DNA of 33,471 bases from Candidatus Tanganyikabacteria bacterium. GTDB lineage: Bacteria > Cyanobacteriota > Sericytochromatia > S15B-MN24 > VGJW01. The DNA is taken from positions 1 to 33,471 of the forward strand of contig VGJY01000031.1 in the NCBI GenBank assembly GCA_016867235.1. The letters are read 5' to 3'. The notes below the pieces were generated by a model that saw only the letters and a program-made list of their open reading frames with translations, did not search any database and was not told where the DNA came from. This document shows, piece by piece, positions 5,072 through 15,962 of the stretch. Position 1 is the stretch's first letter; each line of letters starts with the position of its first letter. A program made the translations under genes and the position numbers.

Positions 5072-5202
5072 CCCTTACCCGTGTGACGTAAGTAGCCGTG
5101 GTCCGGGTCAAGCAAGATCCGCGCCATACTCGCCGACAATCTGCCCGAGTCCGCCACGGCGGACGTTGGGTTGGGGGATCTCTTGGGATTGGGGAAGGCG
5201 AC

Positions 5203-6000
5203 ATGCAGGTATTGCAGGCCATTGGCCAGGTATTGGGAACGTTGGCCCCTGCGCTGGGGCAGGCATTCGGGCAGCAGCCGGCCGCGGCGCCGGCCGGCGC
5301 GCCCGCAAACGGACTGGGACTCGACGCGGCGGCGCTGACGCCGCAAGGCAACGCCGCCGCGATCACGCTCGGCAATCCGGCCGGCGCGCCGCAGGGCGCC
5401 CTTGGCGGCGCCGCGGCTCCCGAGGCCGGGGGCATCGTGGAGGCCATACTCCAGATCGTCTTCGGCTTCCTGCGGCTCTTCGGGCTCAACGTCGGCATGC
5501 CGGGCAATCCCGGCTTCGGCGACCCCGGCGGGGCGCCGATCGGCAATCCCGGCTTCGGCGACCCCGGCGGCGCGCCGATCGGCAGTCCCGGCTTCGGCGA
5601 CCCCGGCGGCGCGCCGATCGGCGATCCCGGTTTCGGCGACCCAGGCGGGGCGCCGGTCGGCAACCCGTGGGAGGGCCAGGCGGCCGGCGCCGCGCAACCC
5701 GCGGCCAATGCCGCCGACTACGAGAAGGGCCTGTTCGAGCAGGCCAACGCCGTGCGCCGCGGCCTGGGCCTACGCGAATTGCGTTGGTCCGACGACCTGT
5801 CTCAGGCGGCGCGCCGCAGTGCGGCCGCGGGCACGCACCTGGCCGCGCCGGAAATCTTGTCCTTCGGCGACGGCTCTCCCGCCGACGCGATCAACATGTG
5901 GCGCGGCAGCCCTCCCCACTGGGGGATCCTGACCGATCCCGGCATGACCGAGATGGGCGCCGGCCGGGCTGGCGGCAACTCGGCCATCACGTTCCGCTGA
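5203..6000 (+). CDS. CAP-domain (SCP/YkwD-like) protein with Gly/Pro tandem repeats
   Basis: The C-terminal 95 residues are a CAP fold: EKGLFEQANAVRRGLGLREL then WSDDLSQAARRSAA, a His (TH), and SPADAINMWRGSPPHWGIL with the signature W and HW, ending EMGAGRAGG. Before it lies a hydrophobic segment (AILQIVFGFLRLFGL) and four 13-residue repeats of the type NPGFGDPGGAPIG. The N terminus (MQVLQAIGQVLGTLAPAL) lacks a classical signal peptide. ATG 5203 is chosen because GGGGAAGG sits just upstream, whereas the open frame to 5098 overlaps the palindrome region. CAP proteins are usually secreted and of varied function; here the export route is unclear. Confidence 0.8.
   Translation: MQVLQAIGQVLGTLAPALGQAFGQQPAAAPAGAPANGLGLDAAALTPQGNAAAITLGNPAGAPQGALGGAAAPEAGGIVEAILQIVFGFLRLFGLNVGMPGNPGFGDPGGAPIGNPGFGDPGGAPIGSPGFGDPGGAPIGDPGFGDPGGAPVGNPWEGQAAGAAQPAANAADYEKGLFEQANAVRRGLGLRELRWSDDLSQAARRSAAAGTHLAAPEILSFGDGSPADAINMWRGSPPHWGILTDPGMTEMGAGRAGGNSAITFR
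5503..5658 (+). repeat. Four 39-bp tandem repeats in the CAP gene
   Basis: Units at 5503-5541, 5542-5580, 5581-5619 and 5620-5658 encode GNPGFGDPGGAPI-type 13-mers. Units 1 and 2 differ at one base; later units carry a few changes (N to S to D at the second residue). A partial fifth unit follows. The array forms a flexible Gly/Pro linker and is prone to copy-number change. Confidence 0.92.
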
Positions 6001-6415: not shown

Positions 6416-7744
6416 CTACCAGCCGCCGGCCGGCTGGAGGCGAATCTGCCAGTAGGGGCGGTCGTCCGGCGCCGCCAGTGCGTCCCGGGCGACCAGAAAG
6501 CCGGCGATGGACCAGCTCTGCCGCAAGCGCGTGCCGTTCCCGGGAACGCCGCGCCTGTCGTAGTACTCGGCCCAGTGCGGCGGGAGACCGGCGGCGGCAA
6601 GATCCAGCGCTTCGCGCGCCAGCGCCGCGTCGCCCGCCCCGAGCGCTGCCGCCGTCAGGATCCACAGGATGTTCGGCCAGTGCGCGCCGTTGTGGAAGTG
6701 GCCGGGGCGGCCGCGCGGATCGGAGTTCATCACGATCTCGTACTCGACGCCGTCCAGGTGGGGCCAGCACACCGCCAGCGGCATGCGCCCGAGCAGCTGG
6801 TGGCGGTTGGCCCGCACGGTCTTCACGACGGCGGCCGCTCGCGCCTCTGGCAAGATTCCGGACGCGGCCGCGAGGCAGTTGGCGAAGGACCAGAACCGCC
6901 CGTCGATGTGGCCTGCCCGCAAGGTGCCCGCCAGGTATCCCGTCTCGCGGAGGACCGCCGTCTGGCCCCCCAGCCGCGCGTAGTCGAGATTGAACGGGTT
7001 CGGGTTCCCCGGGCCATGGCTCTCGGTACCCAGCGCCAGCCGCTCGGCCAGGGTGGCGCGATCGAGCCAGTACCACCGGTTCACCCAGGAGCCGATAGCC
7101 TCGGCCTCGGCCCGGCAGAACTGCGCCTCCTCGGCGCGCCTCCCCAGCCTGCCCAGCAGCCTGGCTCCCCAGCGCAGGGCGAGGGCCGCCAGCACCTGCA
7201 GTTGCAGCGGGTAGCCATGCAGGCCGCTCGGGCGGTCGATCTCCGTGGTGGATTCCGGGGCCGCGACGAGCGGCAAGGGATCGAACCTCGGCGCCAGCAC
7301 GAGATCCAGGGCCGCCTTGAACCCCGCCCGGTGCTGCCGAAGCCAGGCCACGTCCCCGGTCGTCTCGACGTACAGGCCGAGCAGGACGAGGAACCACAAC
7401 GTCGAGTCGACGGAGTGGATGGCGCCGATGGCCTCCTCGCCCCCGTAATCGATGCGCTCGGACCGCGGCGCGAAACCGATGGGAATGAGGCCGGCCGTCC
7501 GGCGCGACTGGGACTGGCGCCGCAACAGGGCCTCGAGGAAGCGCGCCACCTTCGGCGGGTCGTGTCGCAGGAAGTGCAGCATCGGCGCCACGTTGTCGCG
7601 GGTCCACACGTTGCCGTAGTGGCTCGCCGTGTCGGCCGCCGAGGCCACCACCCCGCACGGCTCGCCGCGCTCGTCGAAGACGAGGGCCTCGGTGAGCAGG
7701 CGGACCGCGACGGACCGCAGTTCTTCGTGGTAGCGCGCGCTCAC
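6416..7744 (-). CDS. GH100 alkaline/neutral invertase (sucrose hydrolase)
   Basis: The 442-residue protein matches GH100 motif by motif: HYGNVWTRDNVAPMLHF near residue 40, AIGAIHSVDSTLWFLVLL near 106 (carrying a catalytic-region Asp), YPLQLQVLAALALR near 180, FWSFANCLAA near 290, MPLAVCWPHLDGVEYEIV then HFHNGAHWPNILWILTAA near 345-375, and QSWSIAGFLVARDAL near the end. GH100 enzymes hydrolyse sucrose to glucose and fructose in the cytoplasm; no signal peptide is present here. The GTG start at 7744 overlaps the antiporter stop (GTGA), implying translational coupling. With the SPP and SPS-like genes just upstream this completes a sucrose make-and-break set. GH63-like or debranching enzymes share the barrel but lack these motifs. 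Confidence 0.88.
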   Translation of the reverse strand: MSARYHEELRSVAVRLLTEALVFDERGEPCGVVASAADTASHYGNVWTRDNVAPMLHFLRHDPPKVARFLEALLRRQSQSRRTAGLIPIGFAPRSERIDYGGEEAIGAIHSVDSTLWFLVLLGLYVETTGDVAWLRQHRAGFKAALDLVLAPRFDPLPLVAAPESTTEIDRPSGLHGYPLQLQVLAALALRWGARLLGRLGRRAEEAQFCRAEAEAIGSWVNRWYWLDRATLAERLALGTESHGPGNPNPFNLDYARLGGQTAVLRETGYLAGTLRAGHIDGRFWSFANCLAAASGILPEARAAAVVKTVRANRHQLLGRMPLAVCWPHLDGVEYEIVMNSDPRGRPGHFHNGAHWPNILWILTAAALGAGDAALAREALDLAAAGLPPHWAEYYDRRGVPGNGTRLRQSWSIAGFLVARDALAAPDDRPYWQIRLQPAGGW

Positions 7745-9636
7745 GGAAGGGACGCCGCCGGCTCGCCTTCCAGACGCCGTCGCGCCTCCGCCAGGTCGGC
7801 CGCCTTGCCCACGAGGGTTACCAGCTCGCCCGGCTGCAGCACCGTTCCGCCATTGGGCACCAGCAGTGCCCCGTCCCGCTTGACCAGCACCACGAGGCAG
7901 TTGGGCGGCAGCCCGCTCTCGGCCAGGCTCAGAGGCCGGGCGGTGCCGGCGAGGCGGACCTCGGCGACGGCCTCGGCCTGCAAGGGCGACGAGAGCAACT
8001 CGAGGACCGTCGAGCGCGTGACCTTGTGGGCGAGCGCCAGACCCGCGCCCTCCGGCTCGCAGAGCACCTCGATGTCGAGCGCGCGGAATGCGTCGCTCAG
8101 CCGACCGTCCGCCAGGCGTGCGACCAGGCGAATCCGGGCGTCCTTGGCCCGCACTTGCTGGCAGATCAGCAGGTTGGCCTTGTCGCTGGCCGTGGCCGCC
8201 ACCATGCAGGTCGGGTCGCTGCCCAGCACCCGCGCGAGGTCCCGCGGAGCCGCCAGATCCCCGACCCAGACTTCGAAGGGCTCGCCTTCCAGGTCCTCGA
8301 GGAGAGTCGGGTCGCGATCCACCAGGATCACGGCCTCGCCCTGGCGGTGCAGGTGTCGGGCGAGCCAGCGGGCGGTCTCGTCGCCGCCCACGACCACGAC
8401 GGGCTTCGGAATCACTCCCAACCTCCTTGCGACCTGACCGGCCAAACCGCCCTGCACCACGACGGTCACCAAGACGGTGAGGAAGACCAGACTGCCCAGC
8501 GCCTCACCGCCGGCCATTCCCCAGGCCTTGAGTTCCACGGCCATCAGCGAGGCCAGGGACGCCGCCACGATGCCGCGCGGCCCCATCCACGCGATGAAGG
8601 CGCGCTCGCGCCATGATAAGGCGGACGGCGCCGTGGCGAGGAACGTCGAGATGGGGCGCACCAGGAACATCAGCGCGACGATGGTCCCGAGACCGCCCCA
8701 GCCCAGTTCGGTCAGGGACCCGACATTCTGGCCGGCGGCCAGCAACAGGAAGACCATGACGAGCGCCAGGAGGGTGAGGCTCTCCTTGAAGTTGCGAGCC
8801 GACCGGGCACCCGGGAACTCGCGGCTGCCGATCACCAGACCCGCGACCGCCACGGCCGCGATACCCGCCTCGTGCGCCGCGACTTCCGCGGCGGAATAGG
8901 CGATCAGGGCCGTGGCCAGGACCCACACATGGACGGCGGCGCCGGACATGCTCCGCAGACGGCGCAAGCCCGCCACCGAGGCGATGGCGGCGGCCAGGCC
9001 GATGCCGCCGCCGATGGCCAGGTGACCCACGAGTCGGAGGCCGCCGCCGGCAAGCGTCTGATCCGCGGCCGTGATGAAGGTGAAGACCGCCGCCGTCAGG
9101 AGGACGCCCACGGCGTCGACGAGGACGCTCTCGGCCTCCAGGATTGCCCGCAGCCTGGGCCCGACCCGGATGCGCCGCAGAATCGGGTTGATGACGGTCG
9201 GCCCCGTGACCGACACGATAGCCCCGAAGACGGCCGCGGTGCGCCACCCCAGGCCCCCGATCCAGTGGGCGGCGCACGCGGCGCCGGTGGCGGTCAGGAG
9301 GGGCGCCACGGTTACCAGGCCGACGACCGCGGCCGGCGTCCGCCGCATCTGCCGCAGGTCGATTTTCATCGCTCCCTCGAAGACGACGATGGCCACGCAG
9401 ATCGAGACGATGGCGCGCAAGCCTACGTCCCCGAAACGCTCCGGAACGACCAGGCCGAGGAAATCCGGGCCGAGCAGCACGCCGAAGGCGAGGAAGAACA
9501 GGATCGCCGGGATGCCCGTCCGCCGCGCCACGAGGATGCCCAGCAAGCCGGCCCACAGGACCAGGGCGACCGTGCTGACGATCCCCAGGGACGGGTAGTG
9601 GGAGAAAGCGGGCATCTGGCGGGAACATTCTAGCAC
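7741..9636 (-). CDS. Na+/H+ antiporter, CPA family, with RCK (TrkA-N/TrkA-C) domains
   Basis: Residues 1-400 form about 12 membrane helices of a CPA-type exchanger, including FGAIVSVTGPTVINPILRRI, ESVLVDAVGVLLTAAVF (the transport-site Asp region) and WMGPRGIVAASLASL. Residues about 405-530 are a Rossmann TrkA-N domain (PVVVVGGDETARWLARHL, LVDRDPTLLEDL), and about 545-630 a TrkA-C domain. The RCK parts suggest gating by nucleotide or ions. Substrate is likely Na+ or K+ exchanged for H+, by family. The open frame starts at GTG 9636; ATG 9615 (MPAFSHYP) is an alternative, neither with a clear ribosome site. It is coupled to the invertase gene and divergent from the SPP gene, which suggests a shared salt-stress role. 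Confidence 0.88.
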   Translation of the reverse strand: MLECSRQMPAFSHYPSLGIVSTVALVLWAGLLGILVARRTGIPAILFFLAFGVLLGPDFLGLVVPERFGDVGLRAIVSICVAIVVFEGAMKIDLRQMRRTPAAVVGLVTVAPLLTATGAACAAHWIGGLGWRTAAVFGAIVSVTGPTVINPILRRIRVGPRLRAILEAESVLVDAVGVLLTAAVFTFITAADQTLAGGGLRLVGHLAIGGGIGLAAAIASVAGLRRLRSMSGAAVHVWVLATALIAYSAAEVAAHEAGIAAVAVAGLVIGSREFPGARSARNFKESLTLLALVMVFLLLAAGQNVGSLTELGWGGLGTIVALMFLVRPISTFLATAPSALSWRERAFIAWMGPRGIVAASLASLMAVELKAWGMAGGEALGSLVFLTVLVTVVVQGGLAGQVARRLGVIPKPVVVVGGDETARWLARHLHRQGEAVILVDRDPTLLEDLEGEPFEVWVGDLAAPRDLARVLGSDPTCMVAATASDKANLLICQQVRAKDARIRLVARLADGRLSDAFRALDIEVLCEPEGAGLALAHKVTRSTVLELLSSPLQAEAVAEVRLAGTARPLSLAESGLPPNCLVVLVKRDGALLVPNGGTVLQPGELVTLVGKAADLAEARRRLEGEPAASLP

Positions 9637-9685
9637 GGGAGATGTCTAGTACTTATCCCGCATGGGAATTAAATTACTATCGCTT

Positions 9686-10408
9686 ATGGTCCCATCTCGC
9701 CTCCTCGTCACCGATCTCGACGGAACCCTCGTCGGGGACGGGGAAGCCCTGCGGGCGTTCCTGGCGTGGTGGCGCAAGGCGCGGAGCGACGTCCGCCTGG
9801 TGTACAACACCGCGCGCACGTGGCCCTCCGCCCAGGGCCTTCTCAGGTCGCACGGGCTGCCCTGGCCTGACGCGGTGGTGACTGGCCTGGGGACGGAGAT
9901 CCGCTTCCGGCGCGGTGGACCGCCGGACCCGGCCTGGGCCGGGCGCATGGCGGCTCGCTGGGACAGGCGGGCCGTCATGGCGATCGCCGCCTCCCTAGGC
10001 TCCCGCCTGGTCCCGCAGCCCTCGATTGCCCAGGGTCCGCACAAGGCGAGCTTCGAGGTCGCCGATCCGGCTGACGCCCTGCGCTTCCTCGACCGCTTGC
10101 TGGGCGCCCGCCTCTGGGTCCACGCCGGCCTGACGCAGGAGCGGTTCGTGGACGTGATTCCCTTCCTTGCCGGAAAGGGCGCCGCCACCGCCCATCTCAG
10201 GCTGCGGTTCGGCATCTCCGCCGGCCGGACGATGACCATCGGCGACAGCGAGAACGACCTCGGCATGCTTTCGCGGCCGGGACCCGCCATCGCCGTCGGC
10301 AACGCCTCGCCCGGCCTCCTGGGTATGCTCGGCTCTCACGTCTACCGGGCGCCCTCCGCCGCGGCCGCCGGCATCCTCGAGGGTTTGCGGCACTTCGGCT
10401 GGCGCTAA
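9686..10408 (+). CDS. Sucrose-phosphate phosphatase (S6PP-type HAD hydrolase)
   Basis: This HAD-superfamily phosphatase has motif I LLVTDLDGTLVGDG (nucleophile D10, general acid D12), the S6PP-type segment RLVYNTARTWPSAQGLL, PDAVVTGLGTEIRF, and motif IV GDSENDLGMLS. It removes phosphate from sucrose-6-phosphate, the last step of sucrose synthesis. The start is ATG 9686 because family members begin a few residues before motif I; ATG 9662 would add eight residues and lies in an AT-rich promoter-like stretch. Neither has a Shine-Dalgarno, so the mRNA may be leaderless. The SPS-like glycosyltransferase follows after 102 bp, and the antiporter and invertase lie divergent. A generic mannosyl- or glucosylglycerate phosphatase is the closest alternative. 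Confidence 0.78.
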   Translation: MVPSRLLVTDLDGTLVGDGEALRAFLAWWRKARSDVRLVYNTARTWPSAQGLLRSHGLPWPDAVVTGLGTEIRFRRGGPPDPAWAGRMAARWDRRAVMAIAASLGSRLVPQPSIAQGPHKASFEVADPADALRFLDRLLGARLWVHAGLTQERFVDVIPFLAGKGAATAHLRLRFGISAGRTMTIGDSENDLGMLSRPGPAIAVGNASPGLLGMLGSHVYRAPSAAAAGILEGLRHFGWR

Positions 10409-10459
10409 GGAAACCCTCAGTTCCCTTCTCCGGTCATCGGGGCATGTGAATAATGGCTA

Positions 10460-10486
10460 CTTATGAATTACTCGATATTTCATAAG
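10460..10486. promoter_or_regulatory. Inverted repeat before the SPS-like gene
   Basis: CTTATGAA (10460-10467) and TTCATAAG (10479-10486) are exact inverted arms with an 11-bp spacer, in an AT-rich patch 24 bp before the start codon. The 10-mer CATAAGCGAT at 10481-10490 recurs in inverse orientation (ATCGCTTATG) at the SPP start region, 9678-9687. It is a good candidate operator for a shared regulator. Confidence 0.5.
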
Positions 10487-10510
10487 CGATGATTATTGGA
10501 GGTTCCCGCG

Positions 10511-11737
10511 ATGACTCGAATCGCTCTCATATCCGTTCACGGCGACCCGTCCGCCGACATCGGCGCCGAAGGCGCCGGCGGGCAGAACGTCTACGTGCGC
10601 GAAGTGGCGCGCAATCTGGCCCGGCGGGGCCTGGAGATAGACGTATTCACCCGTTCGCAAGCCGGCGAATTGGTCCGGGAGCGGGCACTCTTCCCCGGCG
10701 TTCGCCTCGTCTCGGTGCCATGCGGGCCGGAAGGCTACGTGCCACGGGACGCCCTGTTCGCCGAGTTGCCCGAGTTCGTACGCCATGCGGCCGACTGGGT
10801 GAAGCGGCACGGAGTCCGGTACCGGGCGCTGCACAGCAACTACTGGCTCTCGGGGTGGGTCGGCATGCGGCTCGCCGGCTTGTGGAAGACTCCCCAGACG
10901 CACACCTTCCACTCGCTTGGCAGGGTCAAGTACGCCGCTCTGGGCGCCGCCATCCCGCACCGCGGCAGGATCCGCCTGGGAGTCGAGGAGGCGATCGCCA
11001 GCACCGCGACGGCCCTGGTGGCCACCACCCAGGACGAAGCCGAGAAGTTACGCCACTCGTACCAGGCCTCGGCTCCCATCGCGCTGATTCCTTGCGGCTT
11101 CGACGCGGAGCGGTTCCGGCCGCTGGATCGGGCGCAGTGCCGGCAGGACCTCGGCTTGCCGGCCGACGCGCCGATCCTGCTGTACGTGGGTCGCTTCGTG
11201 AAGGAGAAGGGCGTCGAGACGCTGATCCGCGCCGCGGCGGTGCTGCGCCTCGAGCATCCGGTTCACCTCGTCTTGGTGGGCGGGTACCAGGAGGGCGGGG
11301 CCGACGAGGCCGAGTACCGGCGCGTACGCGACCTGATCTCCGCGCTGGGCCTCGGCCCGGCCACGACTTTCGCCGGCGCGGTCGATCACGGCGGCCTGGC
11401 CGCCTACTACGCCGCGGCCGATGTCACGGTCGTGCCCAGCCACTACGAGGCGTTCGGCATGGTCGCGATCGAGGCGATGGCTTGCGGGTGCCCGGTCGTG
11501 GCCAGCGCCGCGGGCGGCCTGGCGGCCAACATCCTCGACGGCAGGACCGGGTTGCTGGCCACTCCGCGGGATGTCCCGGCGTTCACGCATGCCATCGCGC
11601 GCGTGCTCGCCGTGCCGGGCCTGGCTCGAAAGCTGGCCCGCTCCGCGCTGGTGCGAGCCCATCGCGAGTTCGACTGGGCGCGGGTTGCCCTGTGTCTCGA
11701 TCGCCACTACGCCTCCCTCCAGCCGGCCGGTGTATGA
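10511..11737 (+). CDS. Sucrose-phosphate-synthase-like GT4 glycosyltransferase
   Basis: The 408-residue GT4 protein starts with MTRIALISVHGDP and GGQNVYVREVARNLARRG, the donor/acceptor-site pattern typical of sucrose-phosphate synthases and related retaining enzymes. Later motifs are THTFHSLGRVK, IPCGFDAERFRP, ILLYVGRFVKEKGVETLIRA and HYEAFGMVAIEAMACG (the E-x7-E motif of GT4). GGAGG lies 8 nt before ATG 10511, fixing the start against the longer frame from 10496. In context with SPP and invertase the likely reaction is UDP-glucose plus fructose-6-phosphate to sucrose-6-phosphate. MshA or trehalose/mannosyl GT4 relatives cannot be excluded by sequence alone. Confidence 0.78.
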   Translation: MTRIALISVHGDPSADIGAEGAGGQNVYVREVARNLARRGLEIDVFTRSQAGELVRERALFPGVRLVSVPCGPEGYVPRDALFAELPEFVRHAADWVKRHGVRYRALHSNYWLSGWVGMRLAGLWKTPQTHTFHSLGRVKYAALGAAIPHRGRIRLGVEEAIASTATALVATTQDEAEKLRHSYQASAPIALIPCGFDAERFRPLDRAQCRQDLGLPADAPILLYVGRFVKEKGVETLIRAAAVLRLEHPVHLVLVGGYQEGGADEAEYRRVRDLISALGLGPATTFAGAVDHGGLAAYYAAADVTVVPSHYEAFGMVAIEAMACGCPVVASAAGGLAANILDGRTGLLATPRDVPAFTHAIARVLAVPGLARKLARSALVRAHREFDWARVALCLDRHYASLQPAGV

Positions 11738-13742: not shown

Positions 13743-15962
13743 ATGTCGAACACCCAGCCGTCTGTCACGCCGAGCGGCGCGCCGCGCCGCCGGGCTCCGC
13801 GCACGCCCCTGCGGGCCCCGCAGGCGCCTTCCGGCGATTTGCCGGTCCGACCGGCGCCGGATCGGGTCGCGTTCGGCAACGGGTCGCCAGGCCCCGCAGC
13901 GCCGGGCGGCGCCACGCTCGCCGCCAATCGGCCGGGCGGCCCGGTGCAAGGCGCGGCCCCCCTCTCCGGCAGCCGCGGCTCGCATGTCGCGCGAGCCCTG
14001 GCGCGGGGCGTCCTGCACGCTCCCGCCGGGACCTGGCACACGTTGCGGGACATGGGCAAGGCCGTCCTGGACCACCCGCTTCTCACCGGCGCCATCCTGG
14101 CCGGCTCGATCGGGCTCACCGCCGCCGTGCCGGCCGCCGCGCCGGTGATGGTCGGCATCGGCGCCGTGCTGGCCGGCGTCAGCGTCGGCGTCAAGACGCA
14201 ACGCGCCGTCAGCACCGCCTGGGACGCCCGCACACAGAAAGACCTGGACCGGGCCGCCCGCCTGGCCGGCGACGCCTACGGCGACGCCCTGGTCAACGGC
14301 GCGCTTTTCGCCTTGCCCTACGCCGCCGGCCGCATCGCCCAGGCCCGCGGGCACCGCTTCATGACCCGGGCAATCTCCCAGGCGCAGGCGGAAACGCCGG
14401 CCGGCGCCCCCAAGGGCGACGCCTCGCTCGCCAAGGTCCTCGAGTTCGTCGAGAACACGATGAAGGCCCCGCCGGACGATCTGGCCCGCGATGCCGCCCG
14501 GACGTTCCAGGCCCTGCCCCGCGGCACGCGCAAGCAACTCATGCGGATGGTCGTGGACCAGGAGTTCCTGTCAGGATCGGCTTCCGACCGGGCGGCGCAA
14601 CTGCTCGACGCCCTCGGCCCCGGTTTCACGAAGCTTGCCCAGGTCTACAGCGAGGCCGACGGCGTGCCGCCCGCGGTGGCGCGGGCCCTCAAGGTCAGTC
14701 GCGACGCCATGAAGCCGATGCCGCAGGGCACGCTCCACGACGTCCTGTCCAGGCATGGCACGCAGGACCTGGGCGACATGCTGCGCGGCATTTACAAGAT
14801 CGGCGACGGCCGCTACCGCCTCGAGAAGCTCCTGGGCGTGGCGTCGATCGGCGAGGTGCACCTGGCCCGCGACGTCGAGAGCGGCGCCCAGGTGGTGCTC
14901 AAGGTCCGCAAGGTGGCCGCCAATCCCCGGGCGGTCGAGCGGGAGTTCCGGCTCATGCGCGAACTCGTCGAGGTGGGCGCCAAGCACGGTAGACTCTCGG
15001 CCGAGCAACTCGACCTGGCCAAGGGCAACCTGGAGAGCTTCCGCCGCGGCGTGCTGGCGGAACTGGATTTCGGCAGCGAGGCCAAGGCGGCCCGCCGTTT
15101 CGCGCAGCTCTACAAGGAAGCCGGCTTCGACGGTGTCACGGTGCGCCACGTGAGCAAGGGCGGCGATCTGCTGGTGATGGACGTCGCCCAGGGCGTGCCG
15201 TTCACGAAGCTCGACACGCTGCCCGCCGCCCAGCGCCAGGAAGCGCACCTGGCCTACCTCCGGGCGATGCTGCGCCAGGTCTTCGACGGCTACTTCCACG
15301 CGGATCCGCATGCGGGCAACGTGTTCTGGAACCCCGCCACCCGGCGCATCCAGTTCATCGACATGGGCGCGATGGGCGAGACTGGCGTCAAGCAGCAGCT
15401 CGAGCTGGCCGAACTCCTGCTCACGAGCCTCTCGCGCAACCCGGACGCCATCGCCGCCAACATGATCCGCACGGCCGAGAAGATCACCTCGCCGCTGCCC
15501 CGGGCCAAGCTGCAGGCCGCGCTCGGCGACGAGGTGGCCGCCTTCCTGGCGCGCTACGGCCGCGCCGGCGACCTCAACCGCCAGTCCATGGACCTGATGC
15601 GGGCGGCGCAACGGCTGGGCGTCTGGCCCCGCGACAACGGGTTCTGGTTCAACAAGACGATGTTCACGGTCGTCACGACCGTGGACAAACCCACGCAGGA
15701 ACTCTTCATGGCCGAAGCCCTGCCCAAGCTGGCGGTGGCGGTGGCCCGGACGGCGGTGTCCGAGCCCGCGGAGACGGCGCGGATGCTCTCGCGGGTGGCC
15801 CTGGCGGCGCGGCGCAACCCCGGCGAATTCATGGCCGCCCTAGTCGTGCAGTCCAAGGCGCAGCCGCAGATGCTCGGCAACCTGCCGAAGTGGGCCGTGC
15901 GCGCCTCCAACGAGTTCGCCCTCCCGGGGCGGGCCCTGTCGCTCGACATCACGGGCGACTGA
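13743..15962 (+). CDS. ABC1/UbiB-family atypical kinase
   Basis: The 739-residue protein has a low-complexity N terminus (residues 1-80), a hydrophobic pair of segments (about 112-150) and an ABC1/UbiB kinase core. Motifs: LGPGFTKLAQVY (the KxGQ region, but KLAQ here, residues about 297-300), GVASIGEVHLA (A-rich-like loop, about 365), Lys387 in VVLKVRK, ELDFGSEAKAA (440-450), YFHADPHAGNVFW (517-529) and FIDMGAMGE (the DFG position). UbiB proteins are ATPases needed for isoprenoid-quinone or lipid homeostasis. The KxGQ Gly-to-Ala change is notable because that residue shapes nucleotide handling. The TGA stop overlaps the start of palindromic element A at 15962. Confidence 0.82.
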   Translation: MSNTQPSVTPSGAPRRRAPRTPLRAPQAPSGDLPVRPAPDRVAFGNGSPGPAAPGGATLAANRPGGPVQGAAPLSGSRGSHVARALARGVLHAPAGTWHTLRDMGKAVLDHPLLTGAILAGSIGLTAAVPAAAPVMVGIGAVLAGVSVGVKTQRAVSTAWDARTQKDLDRAARLAGDAYGDALVNGALFALPYAAGRIAQARGHRFMTRAISQAQAETPAGAPKGDASLAKVLEFVENTMKAPPDDLARDAARTFQALPRGTRKQLMRMVVDQEFLSGSASDRAAQLLDALGPGFTKLAQVYSEADGVPPAVARALKVSRDAMKPMPQGTLHDVLSRHGTQDLGDMLRGIYKIGDGRYRLEKLLGVASIGEVHLARDVESGAQVVLKVRKVAANPRAVEREFRLMRELVEVGAKHGRLSAEQLDLAKGNLESFRRGVLAELDFGSEAKAARRFAQLYKEAGFDGVTVRHVSKGGDLLVMDVAQGVPFTKLDTLPAAQRQEAHLAYLRAMLRQVFDGYFHADPHAGNVFWNPATRRIQFIDMGAMGETGVKQQLELAELLLTSLSRNPDAIAANMIRTAEKITSPLPRAKLQAALGDEVAAFLARYGRAGDLNRQSMDLMRAAQRLGVWPRDNGFWFNKTMFTVVTTVDKPTQELFMAEALPKLAVAVARTAVSEPAETARMLSRVALAARRNPGEFMAALVVQSKAQPQMLGNLPKWAVRASNEFALPGRALSLDITGD

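Follow-up and report, generated by a model that had tools for sequence, protein, structure and literature searches.

A candidate sucrose osmolyte module with an antiporter–invertase gene pair in a non-photosynthetic member of the Cyanobacteriota

Sucrose genes beside an antiporter in a genome without PsbA/PsbD genes

What would a locus that combines sucrose synthesis, sucrose hydrolysis and cation transport do in a bacterium that does not photosynthesize? The window analysed here, the whole stretch of 33,471 nucleotides, is a complete contig (C31; 70% G+C) of a 6.1-Mb draft genome in 514 contigs. Its host is a non-photosynthetic member of the Cyanobacteriota, the phylum that also includes the photosynthetic cyanobacteria: genes for Photo_RC proteins (PsbA/PsbD) were found in none of the 18 genomes of the host's class, by elimination probably the Sericytochromatia, and the Synechococcus positive control was detected. 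Every genome compared was a draft assembly.

The original prediction placed four genes between positions 6416 and 11737, those for a GH100 invertase and an antiporter overlapping by GTGA, and those for sucrose-6F-phosphate phosphatase (SPP) and a GT4 glycosyltransferase divergent from them. Open reading frames and Pfam matches bear out this arrangement: all four genes are intact at these positions (Table 1), the GTGA shared by the antiporter stop and the invertase start gives a 4-bp overlap on the minus strand, and SPP and GT4 point away from this pair. All Pfam scores lie well over their cut-offs (GH100, 274 bits; Na_H_Exchanger, 142; TrkA_N, 53; TrkA_C, 43; S6PP, 171 against a cut-off of 20; GT4 domains, 144). 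Elsewhere the window encodes a CAP-domain protein that contains a repetitive region rich in Gly and Pro (GDPGGAPIG... repeats; 5098-6000) and a large UbiB/ABC1-like kinase extended at its N terminus (13743-15962).

Table 1 Features of the window locus and of the sucrose loci in the related genome G001
Feature	Position	Strand	Details
GH100 alkaline/neutral invertase	6416..7744	-	442 aa, GTG start
CPA1-type monovalent cation/H+ antiporter	7741..9636	-	631 aa, cytosolic RCK_N (413-524) and RCK_C (570-622)
Divergent antiporter/SPP gap	9637..9661	.	25 bp; ~73 bp using alternative inner starts; relatively AT-rich
SPP	9662..10408	+	HAD family, 248 aa; alternative start ATG 9689
Perfect inverted repeat CTTATGAA-N11-TTCATAAG	10460..10486	.	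SPP-SPS gap; possible operator
GT4 sucrose-phosphate synthase (SPS)	10511..11737	+	408 aa; alternative start TTG 10496
LysR-type regulators with C-terminal TrkA_C/RCK_C (G001)	L058:4346-5587 and L057:9964-11214		divergent from SPS
ClC chloride channel and non-orthologous CPA1 antiporter (G001)	L058:86-1426 and 6495-7745		flanks of the L058 sucrose genes

Identity of the enzymes and of the antiporter

Judged by its sequence, the GT4 enzyme is most likely a true SPS. Its top match among solved structures (phmmer) is Tll1590 of Thermosynechococcus (TeSPS; 6kih; 336 bits, residues 4-404), followed by MshA with 207 bits. According to PMC7264703, Tll1590 makes sucrose-6-phosphate and is an experimentally proven SPS, in which His158 and Glu331 are essential, as the H158A and E331A substitutions abolish activity. 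In our alignment, His134 and Glu313 of GT4 occupy these two positions, Arg79, Arg155 and Arg228 correspond to the phosphate-binding residues given there as Arg105, Arg178 and Arg249, and the active-site residues Gln25 and Glu321 are also kept. Gln25 belongs to an SPS-type GGQN motif, in place of which MshA, Chloroflexota enzymes and other relatives outside the class carry GGM or GGL, together with mostly Lys at the Arg79 position. Two further TeSPS active-site positions are changed (Arg253 to Glu232 and Pro332 to Ala314). Both are variable within the class too; they are auxiliary contacts, phosphate-binding and glucose-stacking respectively, and are not among the residues named above as essential. 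In a maximum-likelihood tree, the SPS sequences of the class form a clade (99/97) that is sister to all 36 photosynthetic sequences sampled (100/99), with MshA-type enzymes outside both groups.

The closest NCBIfam model of GT4 is nevertheless mycothiol_MshA (TIGR03449; 304 bits, under the cut-off of 462.5), as would be expected if the protein were an MshA-like D-inositol-3-phosphate glycosyltransferase, or another disaccharide-phosphate enzyme, with coincidental neighbours. However, the proven SPS Tll1590 also ranks MshA first, at a similar 288 bits, so single-domain SPSs risk misannotation as mycothiol enzymes. No MshB above cut-off was found in the 18 class genomes, the window's own included, and sucrose genes accompany GT4 repeatedly: SPP adjoins it in the window genome and in two related genomes (G003 and G007), and GH100 adjoins both copies in a third (G001). 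With the structure scores, Gln25 and Arg79, and the position of MshA in the tree, these observations make this alternative highly improbable, and MshA identity was rejected. They likewise lower the likelihood of the outcome that the original prediction named as its refutation, namely that GT4 makes another disaccharide.

The family assignments of SPP and GH100 are clear from sequence comparison. SPP carries the HAD motifs DLDGT and GDSEND and aligns over its length with Synechocystis SPP (1s2o); its scores stay under the stricter NCBIfam SPP cut-offs. Asp170 and Glu393 of GH100 match the catalytic Asp188 and Glu414 of Anabaena InvA, as quoted in PMC6995568. The protein sits on a long branch (2.09), sharing 30-33% identity with photosynthetic invertases and 60% with the G001 enzyme. 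Pfam matches, residues and tree thus agree with the predicted gene content for sucrose synthesis (SPS and SPP) and hydrolysis (GH100).

In the antiporter, the Na_H_Exchanger membrane domain is followed by TrkA_N and TrkA_C, the CPA1 + RCK order. The same layout, in which the membrane part carries one or more RCK domains in the cytosol, is found in the CPA1 antiporters S. aureus CpaA and the K+/H+ antiporters of the NhaP2/CvrA type, from which the window gene differs in its overlap with the invertase gene and in its ion site: the Asn-Asp of CPA1 proteins (NhaP) aligns with Val173-Asp174. Potassium/proton antiporter models are the best NCBIfam matches (221 bits, under their own cut-off of 355), and the Na+/H+ model scores 48 bits. 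Because K+/H+ models come first, none over cut-off, and Val-Asp replaces Asn-Asp, the Na+ label is insecure, and the proposal that the protein exports Na+ was not upheld. What stands is the wider link between sucrose genes and monovalent-cation transport, which is borne out by its recurrence in related genera.

Gene neighbourhoods and regulators in related genomes

In three genera of one family, the host's included, the sucrose genes have antiporter genes, RCK-domain genes or both as neighbours. Such grouping was absent around 78 GT4 loci from photosynthetic cyanobacteria, Chloroflexota and other organisms not in the class; the exceptions were SPP near several cyanobacterial loci and, at L102, a single antiporter ~3 kb away. 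In the sampled photosynthetic cyanobacteria, the SPS locus has at most SPP, or once this antiporter, near it. Since the grouping recurs in three genera, unlike at these 78 loci, it is not due to chance. Recurrence of the arrangement in relatives had been proposed as a check, and in the two other genera sucrose genes do pair with ion-transport or RCK genes, in altered forms. The non-photosynthetic nature of the host and the LysR and LysR-RCK_C regulators described below are additions to the original prediction.

In G003 (JACQUT010000307, Cyanobacteria bacterium NC_groundwater_1444), SPP-SPS is divergent from a LysR regulator, and an antiporter 74% identical to the window protein begins ~7 bp after LysR; the contig stops inside the antiporter gene, so the presence of GH100 cannot be seen there. 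G001 (JAJXWQ01, bacterium isolate BP5.bin90), of a sister genus, has two SPS-GH100 copies, each pair on one strand. In both, a LysR regulator with a C-terminal TrkA_C (RCK_C) domain is divergent from SPS, and SPP is convergent with LysR. The L058 copy is flanked by ion-transport genes, a ClC channel on the far side of GH100 and, divergent from SPP, another, non-orthologous CPA1 antiporter; the ortholog of the window antiporter sits elsewhere, on contig C68. Within the class the sucrose pathway is patchy: in G007, SPP overlaps a fragment resembling SPS, in G008, SPP stands alone, and SPS was not found in G002 or G004, both of the host's family. SPS-less G004 also has a LysR relative with two in-match TGA codons (L075:332-1234, contig C399), which may be a decaying gene or an assembly error.

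The two G001 LysR-RCK_C proteins are 78% identical to each other, and a LysR-type box, ATTAG-N5-CTAAT, occupies the same place in both SPS/LysR promoters. The fusion of RCK_C to a LysR divergent from SPS points to ligand-controlled SPS transcription in this genus. No full-coverage LysR-RCK_C fusion was found elsewhere in 194 genomes of the phylum. Twelve plasmid records span at least 80% of the LysR-RCK_C query, a count of coverage only that takes no account of RCK_C content. The RCK_C domain of the G001 LysR matches the RCK_C structures 4ys2 and 5f29, named Na+/H+ antiporter-like protein, which we take to be those of S. aureus CpaA, a c-di-AMP receptor. RCK_C may accordingly sense c-di-AMP in these proteins; a diadenylate cyclase is encoded in 17 of the 18 class genomes, the window's included.

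The nearest parallel to the G001 regulators is BusR, a c-di-AMP-controlled osmolyte repressor in which RCK_C is likewise carried by a DNA-binding regulator, with a GntR HTH (PMC8517857). The G001 proteins differ in being built on LysR, which has a substrate domain of its own, and in lying beside sucrose synthesis, not betaine uptake. The likeness applies to G001 only, as the window itself lacks the fusion. Our literature search found no paper on a regulator combining LysR, RCK_C and c-di-AMP. One idea is that a deletion removed the antiporter body and so joined LysR to RCK_C, the LysR and antiporter genes being only ~7 bp apart in G003; the identities of the G001 RCK_C domains (43/38% to the window antiporter and 48/46% to the G001 C68 antiporter) do not decide the matter.

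Within the window, the inner pattern of the inverted repeat in the SPP-SPS gap has a single exact copy in the 6.1-Mb assembly. It is a weak lead, because its chance level in shuffled sequence is ~0.025 and no operator motif common to all sucrose loci was found. The 25-bp divergent gap has no sigma-70-like promoter, and a promoter/terminator scan found nothing.

Function and origin of the locus

We consider the locus to be probably a compact sucrose osmolyte module of non-photosynthetic Cyanobacteriota with ion-opposed arms for synthesis and breakdown. On the plus strand, SPS and SPP would form the sucrose-making arm; on the opposite strand, the overlapping two-gene unit of CPA1 antiporter and sucrose-specific GH100 would form the opposing arm. 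Upon ion influx, sucrose would be made and the invertase kept inactive by ions; once ion levels in the cell had been brought down by the antiporter, the invertase would become active again and sucrose would be recycled. An antiporter-invertase unit opposite SPS/SPP fits this logic because ion export would end invertase inhibition. Sensing, of NAD(H), ATP/ADP or c-di-AMP, probably takes place at the antiporter's RCK domains. The identities of the genes and their layout are shown by the data; the ion sensitivity of the window invertase, the transported ion and its direction, and the regulation are what we infer. The locus may serve under salt or desiccation.

The model for comparison is the ion-controlled invertase of the cyanobacterial sucrose system (PMC6753628): the Synechocystis enzyme is about half-inhibited at 75 mM NaCl, and the proposed main determinant of the sucrose level there is how ions regulate its breakdown. 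The osmolyte systems of Synechocystis, Synechococcus PCC 7002 and Thermosynechococcus (Tll1590) use the same three enzyme families, SPS, SPP and alkaline/neutral invertase, and the window SPS is ~45% identical to the cyanobacterial enzyme. Unlike in photosynthetic cyanobacteria, the window locus lies in a PsbA/PsbD-less genome and adjoins an RCK antiporter.

Two other explanations of the gene set deserve weight. The pathway could be there to store or route carbon, not to confer tolerance of salt or desiccation, with the antiporter working in pH or K+ homeostasis; a shared operon would then make sense because sugar turnover alters cell pH or turgor. Sucrose does more in cyanobacteria than protect against osmotic stress (PMC4390843, PMC11505929), K+/H+ models fit the antiporter best and the rest of the window has no salt-specific gene. 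We nevertheless regard carbon routing as somewhat unlikely, as the pairing with ion genes is repeated in three genera and at L058 takes in a ClC channel and a further antiporter that is not an ortholog. Alternatively, the genes could be loose neighbours in one family, antiporter and invertase lacking regulatory coupling and the 4-bp overlap reflecting ordinary operon packing. The relocated antiporter ortholog in G001, where GH100 follows SPS instead, agrees with this, as does the G003 contig, which ends before any GH100 is visible. Yet RCK and antiporter elements reappear at the sucrose genes of all three genera, in differing forms, which makes mere proximity unlikely.

The locus suggests that sucrose and salt may have been linked in this phylum before photosynthesis arose, or independently of it. 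The tree is consistent with descent of SPS from a shared ancestor, and an early transfer is possible. The SPSs of the class, as the sister clade of the photosynthetic ones, together with SPP and GH100 in a non-photosynthetic lineage, provide direct outgroup evidence on the age of sucrose synthesis. A more far-reaching proposal, that sucrose synthesis with an ion switch existed before or outside oxygenic photosynthesis in the Cyanobacteriota and also that second-messenger control (c-di-AMP or a nucleotide) is carried by RCK_C through an antiporter in one genus and LysR-RCK_C in another, seems to us unlikely.

Each enzyme, and sucrose gene clusters as such, are already known. Three features are uncommon: the presence of the sucrose pathway in a class of Cyanobacteriota that does not photosynthesize, its SPS being sister to those of photosynthetic members; the operon of antiporter and invertase; and the LysR-RCK_C regulators of a sister genus. 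Interest therefore lies in the age of sucrose synthesis and in an RCK-linked osmolyte switch. The factors controlling cyanobacterial spsA transcription are described as largely unknown (PMC6753628), and the operon and the regulators are concrete candidates for the link between ions and sucrose.

GH100 also occurs among sugar genes outside photosynthetic organisms on a small plasmid of Acidithiobacillus sp. AMEEHan (NZ_CP118751.1; L204), which carries, one after another, genes for an MFS transporter, a PfkB kinase and GH100 and then a HAD-annotated gene of 2.1 kb. That cluster differs from the window locus in having a fructokinase-type kinase and MFS instead of an antiporter with RCK domains, and its GH100 is only 30% identical. 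The size of its HAD-annotated gene suggests a fused SPS.
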